This document shows, piece by piece, positions 763 through 21,195 of a stretch of DNA of 64,000 bases (position 1 is its first letter; every line of letters begins with the position of its first letter). The notes beneath the pieces are model-generated. The model saw only the letters and a program-made list of their open reading frames with translations. It was not told the DNA's origin and searched no databases. The translations under genes were made by a program, and so were the position numbers. The stretch is taken from NCBI GenBank assembly GCA_016932215.1, contig JAFGDH010000016.1, positions 1 through 64,000 of the forward strand, written 5' to 3'. Source of the DNA: Candidatus Aenigmatarchaeota archaeon. Its GTDB lineage: Archaea; Aenigmatarchaeota; Aenigmatarchaeia; QMZP01; QMZT01.

Positions 763-3111
763 TTACCAGTCGAATGTCATCTTCCATGCCCTCTTCAGTT
801 CTTCCGCATCCTCGCTGATCACTTCATTCCCATTTGTTCCGGTGATCACCAGCTTCTTATCAATTGTCACTTCGCCAATCCTTCTGGTGTGATCGCCCAT
901 TATCTCTTCGAATTCCTTTTCTTCCCCTTTCTTCACTTCAACCAGAAACCTGGAATTTGATTCAGAAAAGAGGATGACGTAATCCTCGTCACTTTCCGAA
1001 TCGACATTTTTCAGGTTGATCCTCATTCCAAGATTTCCTGCGAATGTCATCTCGGCCGCAGTCACCGCCATCCCGCCTTCGGAACAGTCATGACACGCGC
1101 GGACAATGCCGGAATCCATCGCAGAAACGAGCGAATCCATGGAACCCTTAGCCCTGGCTAGGTTGACTCCCGGGACCTTCCCCCCGTCCAGCCCGTTGAC
1201 CATGTAGAAATGCGAGCCACCCATTTCCTTTTTCGTCTTCCCTATCATGTAAACAGGATTACCTTCCCTTTTCAGGTCCATGGTTACCGCCTTCCTGATG
1301 TCGGGTATTATCCCTACAGCGGTCACCAGCAGCGTATAGGGGATGGAAATCGTATCATTCCCTCCGAGGGAGTATTCGTTGTAAAGGCTGTCCTTCCCTG
1401 AGATGAATGGCGCTTGAAAGCCGAGGGATCCATCATGGCATGCCTTCACCGATTCGACCAGCGCTCCTAACCTGTCAGGTTTCTCCGGGTTCCCCCATGA
1501 AAAATTATCAAGCAGCGCGATTCTTCGTCCTCCGCAGCATAAGTTGTTTCTCATGGCCTCGTCAATCGAAGATAAAGCCATGTTGTAAGGGTCGCTGCAG
1601 AACTTCGGGTTCACACCATTGGATACGACGATTCCCTTCCATGAATCGTTCCTCGGTTTTATTACGCATGCGTCCCCCGGTCCGGAATAACCCTGGACCG
1701 GCTTGATTATCATCTTCGCCTGAACCTCGTGGTCGTACTGCCTGATGACCCATTCTTTCGAAGCGACGTTCGGGGAAGAAAGTATCCTTTTCAGGTCCTC
1801 GTTGTATTCATTCCTTTCAGTAAAACCCGGATCAGTTTCTATCGCCTTCTCGAACCTCGCTTCCCTCATTACCCTCGGGACGCCCTTGTGAAGGAAACCC
1901 ATGTCCAGTTCCGCCACCACATCACCTTCGTGTATTAGCGTGAGCTTTTTGTCACCTGTGAATTCGCCTATGACCGTTGCATCTGTATTTTCGTTCCGGA
2001 ATATATCGAGAACCTCTTTCACGTTCCCTTTCGGAACGGCAAGTATCATCCTTTCCTGCGCCTCGGAAATCCAGATCTCCCACGGCTCGAGGTCAGGGTA
2101 TTTCAGGGGAACCTTGTCCAGCTCGACCCTCACACCGATCCTTTTTCCCATCTCTCCGACAGCACTCGACAACCCTCCTCCGCCGCAGTCGGTGATCGCT
2201 GAATAGAGGGGTATGTCATGCCTGTCCCTTGCTATGAGCTGGCCGTCAAGGACCCTTTTCTCCTCGATCGCGTTACCTATCTGGACGGCTCCGCTGGACG
2301 TCTTTTCCGAATCGGTCGTCAGTTCCAGGGAAGCGAATGTGACGCCGTGTATGCCGTCCCTCCCTGTCTTTCCCCCGACCAGAACTATCATGTCGCCTGG
2401 CTTCGGGTTGCGGACGTATTTGTTGTTCGGCATTATCCCAACGACTCCTGCGTATACGAGCGGGTTGCCGATGTACCCTTCATCGAATCCTATCCCCCCG
2501 TTGGCCGTTGGTATGCCCATCCTGTTCCCGTAGTCCCGGATGCCAGCGACCGAACCTTTCATCAGCCTTTTCGGATGCAAAACCCCTTCAGGCAGCTTGT
2601 CGTGAGGATAATCAGGAGGTCCGAAGAAAAGAACGTCCGTCGAAAGTATGGGTTTGGCTCCCACGCCCATCACGTCCCGGAACACGCCGCCTGACCCGGT
2701 TCCCGCTCCCCCGTAAGGATCAAGAGCTGTCGGATGATTGTGCGTCTCGGCCTTGACGGCTATGTCAAAATCATCATCGAATTTAACTATCCCCGCGTTG
2801 TCCTCGAAGACGCATCTGCACCATGGCATGTTCAGTTCCGTGGTCGCCTTTATTATGTAAGTTCTGAGAAGATGGTCTATCTCCTTCCCGTCCTTCCTTA
2901 TTATCCCGCTGAAGGTCTTGTGTACGCAGTGTTCGGACCATGTCTGGGCGATAGTCTCCAGTTCAGCATCGGTCGGGTTCCTTCCGAGTTCTTCGAAATG
3001 CTTCTGTACCTTTTTCATCTCTTCGAGGTTAAGCGCCAGCATGAACTTTTTGCTAGTTTCCGCCAGGTCCTGGTCGTTCTTCCCCACCAGCGTGATTATT
3101 CTCGGTTTCAT
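763..3111 (-). CDS. purL: Phosphoribosylformylglycinamidine synthase subunit PurL
   Basis: ATP-dependent synthetase subunit that converts FGAR to FGAM with ammonia from PurQ. The 782-residue product is near the usual size of small (archaeal/Bacillus-type) PurL. The N-terminal catalytic part has WSEHCVHKTF and the AETHNHPTALDPYGGAGTG segment that binds substrate and metal, followed by a repeat of the AIRS-like fold. The ATG at 3111 overlaps the purS stop in an ATGA tetranucleotide and follows an AGGAGG Shine-Dalgarno, which indicates translational coupling. It forms a complex with PurS and PurQ from the same operon. Confidence 0.97.
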   Translation of the reverse strand: MKPRIITLVGKNDQDLAETSKKFMLALNLEEMKKVQKHFEELGRNPTDAELETIAQTWSEHCVHKTFSGIIRKDGKEIDHLLRTYIIKATTELNMPWCRCVFEDNAGIVKFDDDFDIAVKAETHNHPTALDPYGGAGTGSGGVFRDVMGVGAKPILSTDVLFFGPPDYPHDKLPEGVLHPKRLMKGSVAGIRDYGNRMGIPTANGGIGFDEGYIGNPLVYAGVVGIMPNNKYVRNPKPGDMIVLVGGKTGRDGIHGVTFASLELTTDSEKTSSGAVQIGNAIEEKRVLDGQLIARDRHDIPLYSAITDCGGGGLSSAVGEMGKRIGVRVELDKVPLKYPDLEPWEIWISEAQERMILAVPKGNVKEVLDIFRNENTDATVIGEFTGDKKLTLIHEGDVVAELDMGFLHKGVPRVMREARFEKAIETDPGFTERNEYNEDLKRILSSPNVASKEWVIRQYDHEVQAKMIIKPVQGYSGPGDACVIKPRNDSWKGIVVSNGVNPKFCSDPYNMALSSIDEAMRNNLCCGGRRIALLDNFSWGNPEKPDRLGALVESVKACHDGSLGFQAPFISGKDSLYNEYSLGGNDTISIPYTLLVTAVGIIPDIRKAVTMDLKREGNPVYMIGKTKKEMGGSHFYMVNGLDGGKVPGVNLARAKGSMDSLVSAMDSGIVRACHDCSEGGMAVTAAEMTFAGNLGMRINLKNVDSESDEDYVILFSESNSRFLVEVKKGEEKEFEEIMGDHTRRIGEVTIDKKLVITGTNGNEVISEDAEELKRAWKMTFDW

Positions 3112-3599
3112 TCAAGCCTCCTGAACCTGAAATTCTGTACGAGTCCGTTCGCGAGACTCTTCCTGCACACGCTTTCTATTTCCTGCTCCGAAAAATCGCC
3201 GTCTATCACGAACGTCGTTCCGGTCCCGACCGATTTCACGCCGGGGACGCCCATGACGCTGATTGCCCTCTCTGACGACAGTCCCACCGGGTCCATCACG
3301 CCCGGCTTGGGCATTATCTCCACCACCCACACGCCTCGGTCTTTAACGAGATTCTCGACGTGCGACCCGTCACCCTTCATTTCACCGAAGTTATAGAACT
3401 GGACGACGTTATCGACAAAAAGATCCTTGCATACCCTTTCGACGTCTTCTCTCGTCACGTCACCGTCGAGAAAGAACGTCTGGAGGGCTTTCACGTCCCT
3501 GACTTTACCTATCCTGAGGTCCTCTATGTCCTTCTTCGTATTGGAACCTACCGGATCAGCCACACCTTCGTTATACCCTATTCCGACAACCCAAGACAT
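3108..3599 (-). CDS. purS: Tandem-duplicated PurS (FGAM synthase subunit)
   Basis: PurS bridges PurL and PurQ in the FGAM synthase complex and is normally about 80 residues and dimeric. This product is about 163 residues and contains two consecutive PurS-like domains, roughly residues 1-83 and 88-163. Both show the order [M/N]xGVxDPVG, a VRDVKAL or VPGVKSV strand, xFxxDGD, and a helix ending in VxNF or VxFYNF. The second copy is the closer match to ordinary PurS. The ATG at 3599 is preferred over an in-frame GTG at 3605; a TTAATA-type box about 28 bases upstream fits a leaderless start. It heads purS-purL-purQ. Confidence 0.88.
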   Translation of the reverse strand: MSWVVGIGYNEGVADPVGSNTKKDIEDLRIGKVRDVKALQTFFLDGDVTREDVERVCKDLFVDNVVQFYNFGEMKGDGSHVENLVKDRGVWVVEIMPKPGVMDPVGLSSERAISVMGVPGVKSVGTGTTFVIDGDFSEQEIESVCRKSLANGLVQNFRFRRLE

Positions 3600-3668
3600 A
3601 AACACACTGGCAAAAGAAATCTGATATTAAGTTTTGATCGTGAGCTATAAAAATATTCACTGAACCAG

Positions 3669-3845
3669 TCATTCGTCTCTTTTCTCTCTGTAATCCCTTT
3701 TCATCCAGATCTGGTATCTTCTGTGGGGATCACCGTTTCCGGTGCGTTTCATTCCGTTATGGAATCTGCTTATAACATCAGGAGGCGTATCAAAACGAAA
3801 ATATTTCCTCAGATTCCATGGCTGCAGGTATTTGTTTTTTTTCAT
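3669..3845 (-). CDS. Small basic protein of unknown function
   Basis: An open frame of 58 codons from an ATG at 3845 (in-frame GTG at 3854) encodes a very basic, aromatic-rich peptide ending in a charged tail. No family recognised. A TATA-like AAATTTAAATA sequence at 3856-3866 lies just upstream and could also serve the divergent plus-strand gene. The frame lies apart from other genes, but the coding evidence is modest because of its size. Confidence 0.45.
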   Translation of the reverse strand: MKKNKYLQPWNLRKYFRFDTPPDVISRFHNGMKRTGNGDPHRRYQIWMKRDYREKRDE

Positions 3846-3855
3846 TTGCGTCACG

Positions 3856-3868
3856 AAATTTAAATAAA
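3856..3868. promoter_or_regulatory. Shared TATA-like element between divergent small genes
   Basis: AAATTTAAATAAA lies between a minus-strand ORF starting at 3845 and a plus-strand ORF starting at 3900. The core is nearly palindromic, so it could direct transcription both ways. Inferred from archaeal promoter consensus only. Confidence 0.45.
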
Positions 3869-3899
3869 CAGTTTTGTCCCGGAAGCATAAAAGCTGTTA

Positions 3900-4229
3900 T
3901 TGAGCCAAAGGAAAAGAATATATTCCTTACTGGCAAGTAATCTTATGGGAACATTCACGTACAGGGGACTTGACATAGACGTCGGCAGCAAAAAAGCCTA
4001 TTTTTTCAGCCAGGAAATCTATGAAGCTGGCGGGCTGAAGGTCCTTGTCACGCCAATTTCAAGAAGACTGGCTATTTTCCATAAAGGTAAAAAAGTAACC
4101 GATGACCTCAGTATCCAGGGGATAATGGACAGGCATTACGTAGAAATCAAAAAAAGAAAAGAGCAGTCCGACAGCGAAATGGCGAAGGCTTTATCCGATA
4201 CCGACAGATTAAATCAGATTAGCCTTTAA
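3900..4229 (+). CDS. Conserved-looking protein of unknown function
   Basis: An open frame of 109 codons from TTG at 3900; an ATG at 3945 would give a 94-residue product beginning MGTFTYRGLDIDVG. The protein is mixed alpha/beta in character with a lysine-rich C-terminus and no signal peptide or membrane segment. The TATA-like element at 3856-3868 would place transcription near 3888, compatible with either start. No family recognised. Confidence 0.5.
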   Translation: MSQRKRIYSLLASNLMGTFTYRGLDIDVGSKKAYFFSQEIYEAGGLKVLVTPISRRLAIFHKGKKVTDDLSIQGIMDRHYVEIKKRKEQSDSEMAKALSDTDRLNQISL

Positions 4230-11688: not shown

Positions 11689-12999
11689 CTATATACCTTT
11701 AAGCATTTTCATGTGTTCTATCCTTCTCTGGATAAGTCCCATTGTTCCGATATCCTTCCTGAAGAAAACGTTCCCCTTCACAGATCCAAGCGCTTGTTGC
11801 GCTATCCTTTCCGCCTCGTCCAGTTTTTCCGAGATCCCGACGAAGGCGATTGCCCTCGACCCGGACATGTAGAGACCGTCCGGCTTCTGGTCGACCGAGG
11901 CGAAATACATGTTCGCGTTGACCAGCGGGCTGACCTCGATCCTTTCTCCGCGGGCGGGGTTGGCCGGATATCCTTTCGGGACTATGTATTTGCAGACGGT
12001 CGATTTGTTCTCAAATTTCGCTTTCACTTTTTCGAGGTTGCCGTTTATTATCCCGTAGCATATGTCTACGAAATCGCTGGACAAAATAGGGAGGACGTTC
12101 ATGGCCTCCGGGTCCCCCAGGCGGGCGTTGTACTCTATTAATTTTACGCCTTCCTTCGTCAGGATGAATCCTCCGTACATAACCCCCTGGTAAGGGGTTC
12201 CGGTCTCCTTTCGTATGGCGTTTGCCATGTAAACCGTTATCCTGTGGGCGTTTTCCATGTCATTCTTCTCTAGGAACGGGAGCAGATGGTCGGAACAAGA
12301 ATACGATCCCATCCCTCCGGTGTTCGGTCCCTGGTCGCCGTCATACGCCCTTTTGTGATCCTGCGCCGGCGGAGAATCGAGCACATGCTTCCCGTCAGTG
12401 AAGCTCTGTAATGAGAATTCTTCCCCTTCCAGCTTTTCCTCTATCACTACGGCCGGGTGCGTCTTGAAAACTTCCCCGCAGTATTTCACGGCATCCTTCG
12501 AATCCTTCAGGTGTTCTCCGTGGACTTTTACTCCCTTCCCCCCGGTAAGTCCGTCCGGCTTGACTACAAATGAATCCAGCGACTGGATGAAATCCTTAAG
12601 GCCGCTGGTGTCCGTGAATACCTGGAATTTAGGCAGACCCGGGATTTTGTATTTCTCCATGAGCATACGTGTAAAGGACTTGGAAGTCTCCAGCCGTGAC
12701 AGGTGTTTCGTTGGACCGACCGAAGGTATCCCTATACCAGCGAGCGCGTCAACGACTCCGAAATCCAGTGGAGCTTCAGGTCCGACGACGCAGAAGTCAG
12801 GACCGACCTTTTTTGCAAATGTCTTTATCCTTTCTATATCATCATACGATCCAACCTCGAAGACGTTCGACATCTTGGTTATCCCCGGATTCCTCGAGCT
12901 GAGATAAGAGTAAAGCTCGGGTTTTTGTGGCGAACGGAGAATCGCCTCGGCAATGGAATGCTCCCTTGCCCCGTTCCCGATTAGAAGTACCTTTACCAT
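11689..12999 (-). CDS. purD: Phosphoribosylamine-glycine ligase PurD
   Basis: GAR synthetase, ATP-grasp fold, second step of purine synthesis. 436 residues, normal. It opens with VLLIGNGAREHSIAEAI, has FVVKPDGLTGGKGVKV in the ATP-grasp lid, and metal/ATP ligands around EEKLEGEEFSLQSF, QDHKRAYDGDQGPNTGGMG and EYNARLGDPEAMNVLP. The start has a GAGGTGA Shine-Dalgarno with four bases before ATG. It begins 9 bases after purF. PurD uses the phosphoribosylamine made by PurF, so operon coupling makes sense for this unstable intermediate. Confidence 0.97.
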   Translation of the reverse strand: MVKVLLIGNGAREHSIAEAILRSPQKPELYSYLSSRNPGITKMSNVFEVGSYDDIERIKTFAKKVGPDFCVVGPEAPLDFGVVDALAGIGIPSVGPTKHLSRLETSKSFTRMLMEKYKIPGLPKFQVFTDTSGLKDFIQSLDSFVVKPDGLTGGKGVKVHGEHLKDSKDAVKYCGEVFKTHPAVVIEEKLEGEEFSLQSFTDGKHVLDSPPAQDHKRAYDGDQGPNTGGMGSYSCSDHLLPFLEKNDMENAHRITVYMANAIRKETGTPYQGVMYGGFILTKEGVKLIEYNARLGDPEAMNVLPILSSDFVDICYGIINGNLEKVKAKFENKSTVCKYIVPKGYPANPARGERIEVSPLVNANMYFASVDQKPDGLYMSGSRAIAFVGISEKLDEAERIAQQALGSVKGNVFFRKDIGTMGLIQRRIEHMKMLKGI

Positions 13000-13008
13000 T
13001 AAATCACC

Positions 13009-14442
13009 TCAACTTTCCATCTCCCAGTACCTTTTGCCAAGAGTTTTCTGGGTTTTCATCCTGTCTGAAATCTTTTGTGCCATCGGGGTAGGATATTCCC
13101 CGGTCAGGCAGGCCATGCATATGTATGATTTTTTCAGACCGACCGCGTCAACAAGCCCGTCAATAGTCTGGTAGCATAATTTTTCAACGCCTATCTCCCT
13201 TTTTATCTCCGGTATAGTGTGGTTTGCGGCAATTAGTTCCGAGTGCCTCGAAATGTCAATTCCGTAAAAGCACGGCGATATAATGGGAGGGCAGGTGACC
13301 CAGAAGTCGACCTTCCTCGCCCCGGCCCTTTTCAGCATGCTTATAATGTTCCTGGACGTCGTCCCCCTCACGATGGAATCGTCCACAAGAAGGACGTGCT
13401 TGTCCTTTATCACGGACTTTATGGGGTTTAGCTTCATCCTGACCGAGATGTCCCTGGTCTTCTGGACGGGCATTATGAAAGTCCTGTAAATGTATTTGTT
13501 CTTTATCAGACCCTCCGCCAGGGGGATGCCCGTTTCGTCCGAAATCCCCTGGGCCGCCGGCCTCGCGGTGTCGGGAACCGGTATCACGACGTCCGCTTCG
13601 CTCGTGAAATTTTTTGCCAGGTTCTCCCCCAGCTTCTTCCTTACATTGTAAACCGACCTCCCCCCGATAACGCTGTCGACCCTGCTGAAATATACCCATT
13701 CGAACATGCAGTGTTTCCGGTCGGGTTTCACCATCTGTTTCTTTTCCATGTCCCCGTCTTTGTGCAGTATAACCATCTCTCCCGGGTTGACGTCACTGAC
13801 CCCGTCGATGCCGTTTATGTCCATCGCAACGCTTTCCGATGCGAACATGCACGTGTCGCAGTTCTTCCCGTAACACAATGGCTTGAACCCGTTGGGGTCG
13901 CGGAAAGCCACGAGGTCGCCCTCTCCGGTCATCATCCCCGCGGAGTATGATCCTTCCACTCTGCTCATTACGTCGACCAGTGAGCTTTCGATATCATTAG
14001 AACTCATCAGGTGATCGGAGAGCAGGTGAGTGATTAGCTCGGCGTCGCATGTGGTCTCGATCTGCCTCCCCTTTCCGGAGACCACCCCTTTCAGGTCCAC
14101 GTAATTCACGAGATTCCCGTTGTGGGCGAATGCGATCCCCCTCATGGGGTGGCTCACCTTGAAGGGCTGGATATTGGAGACGCAGGAGCTTCCGGTCGTG
14201 GAATATCTGACGTGTCCTATCCCCGTGTTTCCCTTGAGCGCGGACAGGGAATTCTCCGAGAAGCACCTTGAAACCAGGCCCATCTTCCTTTCCATATGCA
14301 TGTCGTTCCCGTTCAGCGTCGCAATCCCCGCGCTCTCCTGCCCCCTGTGCTGTAGCGTGATCAGGCCGTTATAAATCATTCTGGAAATCTGCTGTTCCTC
14401 CATGGAACGTATGCCCAAAACGCCGCAAGCTTCTTTTAACAG
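13009..14442 (-). CDS. purF: Amidophosphoribosyltransferase PurF, probable CTG start
   Basis: Commits PRPP to purine synthesis. The Ntn glutaminase domain (about residues 6-230) has Cys in ACGVLGIRS, GHVRYSTTG, FAHNGNLVN and ETTCDAE. The PRPP loop is LLVDDSIVRGTT. Cysteines in KHCMFEW, SPCFYG and CMACLTG match the 4Fe-4S ligands of Bacillus-type PurF. No ATG, GTG or TTG lies upstream of the nucleophile codon in frame; the first such codon, TTG at 14418, would delete it. A CTG at 14442 gives a five-residue leader MLKEA before Cys6 and sits behind an AGGTG Shine-Dalgarno at 14448-14452. The total is 477 residues. Confidence 0.94.
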   Translation of the reverse strand: MLKEACGVLGIRSMEEQQISRMIYNGLITLQHRGQESAGIATLNGNDMHMERKMGLVSRCFSENSLSALKGNTGIGHVRYSTTGSSCVSNIQPFKVSHPMRGIAFAHNGNLVNYVDLKGVVSGKGRQIETTCDAELITHLLSDHLMSSNDIESSLVDVMSRVEGSYSAGMMTGEGDLVAFRDPNGFKPLCYGKNCDTCMFASESVAMDINGIDGVSDVNPGEMVILHKDGDMEKKQMVKPDRKHCMFEWVYFSRVDSVIGGRSVYNVRKKLGENLAKNFTSEADVVIPVPDTARPAAQGISDETGIPLAEGLIKNKYIYRTFIMPVQKTRDISVRMKLNPIKSVIKDKHVLLVDDSIVRGTTSRNIISMLKRAGARKVDFWVTCPPIISPCFYGIDISRHSELIAANHTIPEIKREIGVEKLCYQTIDGLVDAVGLKKSYICMACLTGEYPTPMAQKISDRMKTQKTLGKRYWEMES

Positions 14443-14452
14443 AAAGACACCT
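14440..14452 (-). promoter_or_regulatory. Shine-Dalgarno and non-canonical CTG start of purF
   Basis: AGGTG (14452-14448) is followed by a spacer and CTG (14442-14440). From GGTG the distance is identical to that before ATG in purD, dhs and the genes at 4933, 46349 and 52970. This decides the start of purF. Confidence 0.75.
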
Positions 14453-14475
14453 GAGAATAGATAATTGAAGTGAGG

Positions 14476-14486
14476 ATTTTTAAAAT
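14476..14486 (-). promoter_or_regulatory. TATA box of purF-purD-folD
   Basis: ATTTTAAAAAT on the minus strand would start transcription near 14455, just before the Shine-Dalgarno. This leaves a leader too short to hold any upstream ATG. It lies back to back with the guaA promoter in a 78-base divergent region. Confidence 0.6.
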
Positions 14487-14498
14487 GATCACAGAATC

Positions 14499-14507
14499 AT
14501 TTAAAAG
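14499..14507 (+). promoter_or_regulatory. TATA box of guaA
   Basis: ATTTAAAAG is centred about 26 bases before ATG 14529, suggesting a leaderless guaA message. An ATGAT/ATCAT inverted repeat (14484-14500) lies between the purF and guaA boxes and might bind a shared regulator. Confidence 0.5.
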
Positions 14508-16059: not shown

Positions 16060-17040
16060 ATGATTTGTCTGGGAATAGAGTCGACCGCCCACACGTTCGG
16101 CGTGGGAATAGTCAGGGACAAAGGGAAGGTGCTGGCGAACGAGAGGGACGTTTACAAGCCGAAGTCCGGCTGGGGAATAATCCCCATAGACGCGGCCGCC
16201 CACCACAATAAGGTCTCCCGCGAAATCGTGAAGAAAGCGATGGACTCGGCGAAAGTTAAAGCGAAGGACATCGACATAGTTGCCTATTCGAGGGGTCCTG
16301 GCCTCCCTCCATGCCTTTACGCAGGGATGAATTTTGCAAAAGAGCTGGCGAACGAGTTCGTTGTCCCCCTGGTCCCTGTCAATCACTGCGTTGCCCACAT
16401 AGAGATCGGACGGGTGACGACAGGACTTGACAACCCCGTCGTGGTTTACGTTTCCGGCGCCAACACACAGATCATCTCCTTTGCGGAAGGGTGCTACAGG
16501 GTTTTTGGCGAGACAATGGATGTTGGAATAGGGAACGCGCTGGACAAGTTCGGGAGGTCGGTCGGTCTCGACTTCCCGCAGGCCCCGAAGATTGAAGAGC
16601 TGGCCAGGAAGGGGAAGTGGGTGGAACTCCCTTACGTCGTTAAGGGGATGGACCTCTCGTTTTCCGGCATACTTACGGAATCTCTCAAGAAGCACAAACT
16701 TGGGGAGCCATTGGAAAATGTTTGTTATTCAATACAGGAGGTCTTCTTCTCGATGCTGACTGAGGTCACGGAGCGGGCGTTAGCGCATCTCGGGAAGGAT
16801 CAGGTCCTTCTAACCGGCGGGGTGGCGGCGAACAAAAGACTCCAGGAGATGCTGAACACGATGTGCATGGAAAGGAAGGGGAAGTTCAGTGTCGTTCCGC
16901 GCGAATATTCGGGTGACAACGGCGCGATGATCGCATGGAACGGGATAATAGCTTATAAGTCAGGACAGAAGATCAAACCGGAAAGAGCGAGCGTGGATTC
17001 GGTCTGGAGAACCGACATGGTAAAAATAGGATGGATTTAA
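16060..17040 (+). CDS. kae1: KEOPS subunit Kae1, tRNA N6-threonylcarbamoyladenosine synthase
   Basis: Transfers threonylcarbamoyl to A37 of ANN-decoding tRNAs. 326 residues, ASKHA fold. Landmarks are GIESTAHTFGVGIV at the N-terminus, AAHHNKV and HCVAHIEIG metal-binding histidines, YVSGANTQI, the MDVGIGNALDKFGR nucleotide segment, and the late LTGGVAANKRLQ. The Bud32 kinase, fused to Kae1 in some archaea, is absent from this chain and not seen nearby. It is probably co-transcribed with guaA. The 3' end overlaps the convergent PurF-like gene by 4 bases. Confidence 0.96.
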   Translation: MICLGIESTAHTFGVGIVRDKGKVLANERDVYKPKSGWGIIPIDAAAHHNKVSREIVKKAMDSAKVKAKDIDIVAYSRGPGLPPCLYAGMNFAKELANEFVVPLVPVNHCVAHIEIGRVTTGLDNPVVVYVSGANTQIISFAEGCYRVFGETMDVGIGNALDKFGRSVGLDFPQAPKIEELARKGKWVELPYVVKGMDLSFSGILTESLKKHKLGEPLENVCYSIQEVFFSMLTEVTERALAHLGKDQVLLTGGVAANKRLQEMLNTMCMERKGKFSVVPREYSGDNGAMIAWNGIIAYKSGQKIKPERASVDSVWRTDMVKIGWI

Positions 17041-18443
17041 TTTTTATCTTCTTTTTTGTCCGAGAAATGCGTCAGGTCCTTCCTGTATTCCGTGAATACG
17101 AACTGCTTGTTTATCGGATACACTCCGTCGAAGCAGGCCTTACACGTGTCTGAGTGACCTATCGCCTCGTCCAGCTCTTTCAGTGTGGGATAACAAACCT
17201 TGTCCACGTTTAGTTTTTTAGCTACCTCTTCCCCTATATCCTCAACCTCTCCTTCCAGGCCCTGTGCGGCGAACGTCTTGCTTCTCGGGTCCTTTATGCA
17301 CGGATAGCAGAGAGGCGGGCAGGAAATTATTGTGAATATCTTTTCGGCCCCTGCGCTCCTGAGCTTGTACACCATCCCGTCCCTTAAAACAGTGCCTCTC
17401 ACTATGCTGTCGTCCCCGCATGCGATGCTCTTACCCTTCACGTGCTCCTTGTTGACGAAGAACTTCACTCTCGCGGCCATCTCCCTTTCCCTTGGGTTCT
17501 CGACCTGGAAGGTCCTCTTCGCACCGGGATTCTTTATTGATATCTCGTCGAAAGGTATGAACCTTTTTTTCACCTCGGACAGACCCTGCTGGTATCCTAT
17601 GGCCACGCCCCTTCCGGAGTCCGGGGACGCCATCACGACATCGACGTCGATGGGATATCTTATTGCAAGCTTCCTCCCGAGCTCCTTTCTTACCGTATAA
17701 ACGTTCCTCCCCTCTATGTTGGATGTCGGATCGGCAAAATAAATCCATTCGAAAGAGCAGTGTGCGTGTCTGTCCCTTTTAAGAATCTTGGACTCAACAC
17801 CATTCTTGGTTATCACTATCAATTCACCGGGTTCGACGTCACGAACCGAACCGGCTTCTAGTATGTCCATCGCTTTCGTCTCGGAAGCGATTATGTGCAT
17901 CCCGTCCTTTTTCCCGTAGCACAGCGGCTTGATCCCCTTCGGGTCGCGAAATGCTATGAGGGAAAGCTCGTCGTCCTTCCCTGCGAGAATCACGACGTTG
18001 TAAGGTCCCCTGCCGTCCAGCTTTTCCATCAGCTTTTCGACTGCCGTGTATACGTTTCCCGTGTCCCTGAGATAGGATAAGAACAAGGTTCTCATTATGC
18101 TGTCGTGCTTCCTGTCGCCAAATCCCAGAAGAACCCCATCCATCGCCAGCGAAATATTCACATTTCTTTCGCCCCACTGCTCTACCGGCTGCAACCCGCT
18201 CGACCTTTCGTAAAGTGTGTGACCTATCCCCGCGTGCGGGTTCATCTTCTTGAGGCTTTCAATGTGATTCTTCAGAAAATAATATACAAGCCCGTCGCTT
18301 GTCATCGTATGGAAATATGTCCCGTCGTTAATGCTTATTCCGCATCCTTCTTCCCCCCTGTGCTGGAGGGCGGTAAGGCCGTAGAACAGTTCGTCAGCTA
18401 TGTTTTTTTTATCTGCTGAATATATACCTATTATCCCGGACAT
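17037..18443 (-). CDS. PurF paralogue with inactivated glutaminase domain
   Basis: A 468-residue protein collinear with PurF throughout. The glutaminase site is degraded: the nucleophile position is Ser2 in MSGIIGIYS, GHVRYSTTG has become GHTLYERSSG, and FAHNGNL has become LAMDGVLLG. The phosphoribosyltransferase half is better kept: GDDSIVRGTV in the PRPP loop and AHCSFEW, YPCIKD and CKACFDG for the Fe-S cluster. It may be an ammonia-dependent transferase, a regulatory partner of PurF, or an enzyme for another phosphoribosyl product. Its promoter lies inside an inverted repeat (18493-18525). Confidence 0.85.
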   Translation of the reverse strand: MSGIIGIYSADKKNIADELFYGLTALQHRGEEGCGISINDGTYFHTMTSDGLVYYFLKNHIESLKKMNPHAGIGHTLYERSSGLQPVEQWGERNVNISLAMDGVLLGFGDRKHDSIMRTLFLSYLRDTGNVYTAVEKLMEKLDGRGPYNVVILAGKDDELSLIAFRDPKGIKPLCYGKKDGMHIIASETKAMDILEAGSVRDVEPGELIVITKNGVESKILKRDRHAHCSFEWIYFADPTSNIEGRNVYTVRKELGRKLAIRYPIDVDVVMASPDSGRGVAIGYQQGLSEVKKRFIPFDEISIKNPGAKRTFQVENPREREMAARVKFFVNKEHVKGKSIACGDDSIVRGTVLRDGMVYKLRSAGAEKIFTIISCPPLCYPCIKDPRSKTFAAQGLEGEVEDIGEEVAKKLNVDKVCYPTLKELDEAIGHSDTCKACFDGVYPINKQFVFTEYRKDLTHFSDKKEDKN

Positions 18444-20277: not shown

Positions 20278-21195
20278 ATGGACAGCTTCTCCCGCACGAT
20301 CAGGGACATAGAATCTGTAAAGATACAGGGAGCCGAGAACGTCGCCATAGCTGCAATAAATGCGTTCAAAACCAGGATAAAAACAAAAAGATATTCAGGC
20401 AGGGAACGGCTTTTATCCGATGTGGAGAAATCCAAAAAACTCCTTTTCAAAACCAGACCCACAGAGCCCCTCATGAGGAACTCGCTCGATTTCGTTACCC
20501 ATGGAATAGGTAACTATTCCGATTCCGGGGTTTCGGAAATAAAGAAGATGATCATCCTAAGGGCGGACAAGGCGCTTGCGCATTTCAAGGAAGCGGAAGA
20601 GAAGATAGCCCTGTACGGATCGAGAAGGATAGAGGAAGGTTACGTCGTCTTCACCCACTGCCATTCATCCTCCGTTATAAACATCTTCAGCTCGGCGAGA
20701 AAGCAGGGCAAATGGTTCAGGGTGTACAACACGGAGACCCGTCCCCTCTACCAGGGACGGAAAACGGCTAACGATTGCGTCAGGCTGAAGATACCGGTGA
20801 CGATGTTCGTGGATTCCGCCGCCAGGGTTGCGATAAAGAAGTCAGACATAATGATGATAGGATCCGATGCGATGACGGCCGAGGGAAGGATAGTGAATAA
20901 AATCGGAAGCGAGATGTTCGCGGTCATAGCGAACAAGTACGACGTTCCGGTTTACGTGTGCATGGATTCCTGGAAGTTCGACCCGAAGAGCATAACGGGA
21001 TATGACGAGGAGATCGAACAGCGTTCGTCGAAAGAGATATGGCCCAAGAAGCCGAAAGGCGTCCGGATCGAGAACCCGACATTCGAAAGGGTACTTCCAG
21101 ACCTGATAACGGGGATCATCTCCGATATTGGCCTTTATCCGCCCGAGGTCTTCGTCGAAGAAGTCAAGAAATCCTCGCCGTGGATGTTCGAATAG
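20278..21195 (+). CDS. Ribose-1,5-bisphosphate isomerase-like (eIF2B-alpha family)
   Basis: A 305-residue member of the eIF2B/MTNA/R15P-isomerase fold. It has the proposed catalytic Cys in FTHCHSSSVINIF, the sugar-phosphate segment YNTETRPLYQGRKTA, and the acid in MIGSDAMTAEG. These agree with archaeal R15P isomerase, which links AMP phosphorylase to RuBisCO in the AMP salvage pathway. Neither partner is in the window, so an aIF2B-like or methylthioribose-phosphate isomerase role cannot be excluded. Confidence 0.82.
   Translation: MDSFSRTIRDIESVKIQGAENVAIAAINAFKTRIKTKRYSGRERLLSDVEKSKKLLFKTRPTEPLMRNSLDFVTHGIGNYSDSGVSEIKKMIILRADKALAHFKEAEEKIALYGSRRIEEGYVVFTHCHSSSVINIFSSARKQGKWFRVYNTETRPLYQGRKTANDCVRLKIPVTMFVDSAARVAIKKSDIMMIGSDAMTAEGRIVNKIGSEMFAVIANKYDVPVYVCMDSWKFDPKSITGYDEEIEQRSSKEIWPKKPKGVRIENPTFERVLPDLITGIISDIGLYPPEVFVEEVKKSSPWMFE

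Follow-up and report, generated by a model that had tools for sequence, protein, structure and literature searches.

The 64,000-nucleotide stretch of DNA analysed here (the window; contig JAFGDH010000016.1 of a Candidatus Aenigmatarchaeota archaeon) encodes a full-length paralogue of PurF in which the catalytic Cys is replaced by Ser, hereafter the Ser-type protein. Together with seven orthologues it forms a clade of its own (the Ser clade), under purifying selection along the whole length of the protein and with an inheritance uncoupled from that of de novo purine synthesis. The reading towards which we lean, if only slightly, is that of a neofunctionalised, predicted phosphoribosyltransferase outside purine synthesis that uses some nucleophile in place of channelled ammonia. 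PurF paralogues without the Cys are already known (PurF', described in 2011 by Brown and colleagues), and the Ser clade is separate from them. PurF itself is the textbook gate to purine synthesis. The Ser clade, a PurF-type enzyme found mainly in genomes without the rest of the pathway, makes the PurF' puzzle of 2011 testable, and offers a clear-cut system in which to ask with which other partners PRPP can be coupled.

The Ser-type gene and its neighbourhood

The genes of the window that bear on the argument are the following:

17037-18443, minus strand: Ser-type PurF paralogue, 468 amino acids, intact open reading frame with an ATG start (stop codon counted in)
13009-14442, minus strand: canonical PurF, a short propeptide followed by Cys (TIGR01134, 481 bits), probable CTG start at 14442
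11689-12999, minus strand: PurD, adjoining PurF (TIGR00877, 442 bits)
16060-17040, plus strand: Kae1/TsaD-like gene, convergent with the Ser-type gene with a 4-base overlap (named by sequence likeness, not by a model scan)
20278-21195, plus strand: IF-2B family protein whose nearest match is ribose-1,5-bisphosphate isomerase (221.9 bits against a cut-off of 314); 1.8 kb separate it from the Ser-type gene

At 17037-18443 the minus strand alone is open, the plus-strand frame being interrupted by stops. The encoded protein, whose N-terminus reads MSGIIGIYSADKKN, was matched over residues 3-443 by the NCBIfam PurF equivalog model TIGR01134 with 254.8 bits (E 2e-75), and the scores of all eight Ser-type orthologues fell under the 350-bit cut-off of this model. 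The best solved relative was B. subtilis PurF (PDB 1ao0), aligned over residues 3-444 (E 7e-57). The same structure was the top fold match of the AlphaFold model (mean pLDDT 89.9; TM 0.82-0.84, E 1e-39), for which matches 1-17 were all PurF structures, and the Ntn plus type I PRTase fold of PurF is present throughout this model.

The canonical PurF lies 2.6 kb from the Ser-type gene on the same strand, with guaA and Kae1 between them, and the window is the only locus where the two are near each other. A Kae1/TsaD-like gene is close to the Ser-type gene in all four Aenigmatarchaeota loci (the window and three others), and an isoleucyl-tRNA-synthetase-like gene comes next in two of the four; neither link was found in the carriers outside the Aenigmatarchaeota. 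A conserved operon partner was sought across the Aenigmatarchaeota, Pacearchaeota and bacterial carriers, and none emerged.

Two side observations concern other genes of this genome. Between the upstream stop and the Cys codon (14427) of the canonical PurF, no in-frame ATG, GTG or TTG was seen (14425-14499, minus strand). The sole likely start is the CTG at 14442, which corresponds roughly to an ATG in L009 and to a CTG in L006; this PurF probably starts at CTG. On another contig (L180), a second, divergent PRPP-synthetase-like protein is encoded at 3061-4035 beside the PRPP synthetase (TIGR01251, 65 bits against a cut-off of 113), possibly another paralogue with changed function.

Glutamine site, PRPP site and channel residues

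The Ser clade was compared with 32 canonical PurFs, a column being taken as conserved when at least 90% of the canonical set agreed. Residues were assigned to pockets by alignment to E. coli PurF, not from a ligand-bound structure. The positions discussed, all on the minus strand, are:

18438-18440: codon of Ser2, at the glutaminase nucleophile position (Cys in PurF); Ser in all eight orthologues
18135-18146: A100-M-D-G103, oxyanion Asn replaced by invariant Asp102 and Gly retained
17757-17759: Fe-S cysteine C229
17499-17516: RTFQVE (310-315), PRTase flexible loop, with Gln313 for the channel-wall Ile and Glu315 for Pro, both invariant in the clade
17391-17417: PRPP loop GDDSIVRGT (343-351), GDDSIVRG in all eight orthologues
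17298-17300: Fe-S cysteine C382
17286-17294: K384-D-P, a clade-specific motif with Lys for the Asp (GID) that is invariant in the PurFs sampled
17142-17144: Fe-S cysteine C434
17133-17135: Fe-S cysteine C437

The eight orthologues all begin M-S-G and none has Cys at position 2, whereas Cys occupied the nucleophile position in 100% of the canonical PurFs sampled. The glutamine-binding HVRYST of PurF reads HTLYER, with L77 for Arg and R80 for Thr; D102 and G103 are found in eight out of eight sequences, and the conserved Asp (column 113) of the CDAE motif is gone. Ser2, D102 and GDDSIVRG recur in every orthologue, which goes beyond what chance would give. Glutamine-site columns lost in the clade include 2, 77, 80, 102 and 113, and the combination of Cys nucleophile, Arg/Thr and Asn-Gly that marks a PurF is missing. 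Judged by three of these replacements (Ser for Cys, Leu for Arg and Asp for Asn), glutaminase chemistry is predicted to be gone from the protein.

The PRPP loop and the Fe-S cysteines, likewise marks of PurF, are present in the Ser-type protein, as is the KN..RTF segment (residues 304-312). Conserved canonical columns were retained by the clade in 32 of 41 cases in the PRTase half and in 24 of 36 in the Ntn half, the PRTase-loop columns lost including 273, 313, 315 and 384. Among the invariant replacements are C2S, N102D, N107G, V273S, I313Q, P315E and D384K, with Q313 and E315 in 8/8 orthologues. Ile335 and Tyr74 form the wall of the ammonia channel in E. coli PurF (PMC7953260); alignment column 313 corresponds to Ile335, and Tyr78, the counterpart of Tyr74, is retained. 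Four residues, D102, Q313, E315 and K384, differ from PurF, are invariant in the Ser clade and map to the former glutamine pocket and to loops of the PRTase. On this alignment, the loss of glutaminase appears to be more than mere loss, in that pocket and loops carry new and invariant residues. With the PRPP site kept and the route of the nucleophile apparently rebuilt, a new nucleophile would be favoured over simple use of free ammonia.

The initial annotation of this gene had described a protein collinear with PurF, with Ser at the nucleophile position, the PRPP loop and four Fe-S cysteines kept and a real PurF 2.6 kb away, all of which held. It had also listed Arg/Thr and Asn-Gly as lost, which is right for Arg, Thr and Asn but not for the Gly, kept as G103. 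Relatives with Cys at position 2, or signs of decay such as a relaxed PRTase half, which it had named as evidence against its view, were not seen in the clade.

Distribution, descent and selection

Besides the window's genome, the Ser clade was found in three Aenigmatarchaeota, two Pacearchaeota, CSMAG_44 (an unplaced MAG labelled bacterium) and Planctomycetes bacterium DG_23, at 52-75% identity to the window's protein. When 84,980 species genomes were scanned with two motifs of the clade, all seven of these orthologues were recovered, and no further member was found among the sampled 156 genomes of the host's class and 378 of the Pacearchaeota class. The clade is therefore rare and scattered, which suggests horizontal transfer. 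A virus-borne origin was rejected, since a scan of viral contigs gave three relatives of 27-30% identity, none of them in the clade. Nothing on the clade was found in the literature. One Pacearchaeota orthologue (L057, 10001-11254) diverges after residue 400 and ends early, at 418 amino acids, likely owing to a frameshift or an assembly fault near the contig end. Divergent PurF-like proteins that bear the Cys are numerous in the host's archaeal class (L012, L014, L016-L018, L022, L026, L045 and others); two genomes of the host's family (G001 and G002) were tested for PurD, and it was not found in either.

The phylogeny of PurF and its paralogue, which the initial annotation had called for, united the Ser-type orthologues as one clade (support 100/99) in three trees. 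The Ser-type protein was not sister to the local PurF in any of them, and a recent duplication of the latter was rejected.

In the eight carriers, all of them incomplete MAGs (the window's genome included) in which single absences weigh little, PurF scored above its family cut-off in two, the window's genome and DG_23, and was absent at that cut-off from six. PurD and PurM passed their cut-offs in the window's genome only and in none of the other seven, PurD having been sought also with the window's own protein as query; PRPP synthetase passed in four.

Between the window gene and an orthologue 75% identical to it, synonymous change was saturated (pS 0.85-0.87), whereas pN stood at 0.145 for the glutaminase and 0.133 for the PRTase half, with 75.7 and 77.2% identity between the proteins in these halves. 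Across close pairs of Ser-type genes (about 70-77% identity) pN ranged from 0.13 to 0.19, again with saturated synonymous sites. The true PurF of the same family shows quicker evolution of its glutaminase half than of its PRTase half (54.9% vs. 64.7% identity). If anything, then, the dead glutaminase half is relatively better kept in close pairs of the Ser protein than in PurF. With both halves equally constrained, decay is ruled out and some role of the Ntn domain is implied, which bears out the earlier proposal that selection has preserved a whole pseudo-amidotransferase.

Function and comparison with known systems

In the reading that we narrowly favour, the Ser-type protein would still bind PRPP and transfer its phosphoribosyl group. 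As acceptor we would expect a small nucleophile that is not channelled, glutamine-derived ammonia; its binding would be at or through a site into which the former glutamine pocket and channel have been remodelled (D102, Q313, E315 and K384). By analogy with glutaminase-less relatives of asparagine synthetase, the Ntn domain may remain as a lid or as an acceptor-binding domain. That PRPP synthetase passes its cut-off in only four of eight carriers is hard to square with an enzyme that uses PRPP, except where salvage or scavenging supplies the PRPP.

An ammonia-dependent PRPP aminotransferase, in which PRPP and free NH3 would give phosphoribosylamine (the proposal made for PurF'), is unlikely. 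It would be in line with the retained PRPP loop and KN..RTF segment and with the ammonia-dependent activity that E. coli PurF keeps when Cys1 is changed to Ala or Ser, as stated where PMC3261824 cites Mei and Zalkin. However, the users of phosphoribosylamine, PurD and PurM, are missing from most carriers, where ammonia for purines cannot be the answer, and plain loss of glutaminase requires neither the exchange of the channel Ile for an invariant Gln nor that of the next-but-one Pro for Glu. The initial annotation had suggested free ammonia or another amine; another amine or nucleophile stands as the best general idea, whereas ammonia-derived phosphoribosylamine for purines is unsupported as a general role, with no PurD or PurM above the cut-off in seven of eight carriers.

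It is similarly doubtful that the protein is a non-catalytic PRPP or nucleotide sensor controlling another enzyme of ribose-phosphate metabolism or nucleotide salvage. PurF is allosteric and has nucleotide sites, seven of the eight carriers have no PurD or PurM above the cut-off, and the glutaminase half has stayed conserved despite losing its activity, all of which would suit a sensor; the strict retention of the PRPP-loop catalytic residues and Fe-S ligands speaks against it, as does the lack of a partner gene conserved across Aenigmatarchaeota, Pacearchaeota and the bacterium.

A tie of the protein, as a PRPP-using transferase, to the archaeal AMP/ribose-1,5-bisphosphate/form III RuBisCO pathway is a long shot. 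The RuBisCO large subunit was detected in seven of eight carriers, namely all those of archaeal type, and was absent from the planctomycete DG_23; type III RuBisCO and AMP phosphorylase pass their cut-offs in the window's genome, while form III in the other six is assumed from lineage and not from a form-specific model. The two genes lie near each other on another contig of the window's genome (L180, 8394-12197). Counting in the IF-2B-type isomerase relative at 20278-21195 of the window, the AMP pathway of this genome looks complete. Six RuBisCO genes have been reported from 23 Aenigmarchaeota genomes (PMC8407114), and comparison of the four Aenigmatarchaeota carriers with this set gave an uncorrected Fisher p of 0.012 in a post hoc test on one of several families, with differing genome sets and kinship ignored. 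The association is a lead only, because of these features of the test and because the bacterial carrier has no RuBisCO. Transfer from PRPP to phosphate would yield the beta anomer of ribose-1,5-bisphosphate, which an alpha-specific isomerase should reject. Phosphate is thus disfavoured as the nucleophile on stereochemistry, and a different exact reaction would be required.

That the protein regulates the neighbouring PurF, as the initial annotation had proposed, or is a subunit of it, is very improbable and unsupported as a general role: the two genes share a strand in the window's genome, 2.6 kb from each other, but six of the eight carriers have no PurF above the cut-off, which speaks against an ancestral role, and the three other Aenigmatarchaeota loci have Kae1 nearby and not purine genes. 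A decaying pseudogene or assembly artefact, to which the lost nucleophile might point, can be dismissed given an intact, stop-free reading frame, orthologues spread over several lineages and eight assemblies, and low non-synonymous against saturated synonymous change in both halves.

With PurF (glutamine PRPP amidotransferase, EC 2.4.2.14; TIGR01134; PDB 1ao0 and 1ecc), the Ser clade shares the full-length, collinear Ntn and type I PRTase domains, the PRPP loop, KN..RTF and the Fe-S cysteines. It differs in having Ser for Cys, Leu for Arg, Asp for Asn, Gln for the channel Ile, Glu for Pro and Lys for the GID Asp, and the Ser-type protein, under the PurF family cut-off, is 32-39% identical to the canonical PurFs sampled.

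PurF' of Crenarchaeota was described in 2011 as a group of Cys-less PurF paralogues near purF, with a proposed dependence on ammonia (PMC3261824). As recovered here from Thermoproteota genomes, PurF' has Ala, Ser, Gly or another residue at position 2 and mostly Asp at the oxyanion position. The two groups share the lack of an N-terminal Cys (Ala or Val in PurF', and here also Ser), the change of oxyanion Asn to Asp in most, and the Fe-S cysteines. In contrast, PurF' has PRTase motifs of its own (YAFD..W, VPETAIPFAMAYS, GVQLKLN and CP[YF]G..VPP.DELI), and VPETAIPFAM, RTG...R.A and GVQLKLN are absent from the Ser-type protein; PurF' is also in tandem with purF in many genomes sampled, whereas the Ser-type gene is near PurF in the window only. 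Each clade is monophyletic (100/100 for PurF', 100/99 for the Ser clade) and a tree joining both was rejected (AU p = 0.0136), so the Ser clade is not the orthologue of crenarchaeal PurF'; it is a second, independent case of this kind of change, in a different genomic setting. In some Thermoproteota PurF' genes (L127, L132 and L135) the first codon is one for Val, probably GTG, and Ser comes next, so that Ser at the nucleophile position has a separate origin in them.

Mlab_0150 of Methanocorpusculum labreanum, a PurF paralogue with Ser for Cys, is described as a recent duplicate of that organism's own purF (PMC3261824). The Ser clade, by contrast, is old, and the local PurF is not its sister; in this it differs from Mlab_0150 as described.

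Further Cys-less PurF relatives occur in DPANN archaea (L020, L021, L024, L113, L119, L111, L044 and L027; Met-Gly-Ile, Ala, Asp and Gly forms), nearly all with Asp at the oxyanion position and some without Fe-S cysteines; loss of glutaminase seems to recur in PurF. A common origin of all Cys-less DPANN forms was rejected: most of them group weakly in the full-length tree (90/32), but in PRTase-only trees the group of L020, L021, L024, L113 and L119 falls elsewhere, only L111 joining the Ser clade.

Among relatives of asparagine synthetase, beta-lactam synthetase and lasso peptide cyclase keep an Ntn domain with inactive glutaminase while the partner domain uses another nucleophile. That partner is an unrelated synthetase and not a PRTase, so the likeness is one of analogy only. 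The Ser clade and PurF' together indicate that the glutaminase of PurF was lost more than once in archaea, with the full-length protein retained.
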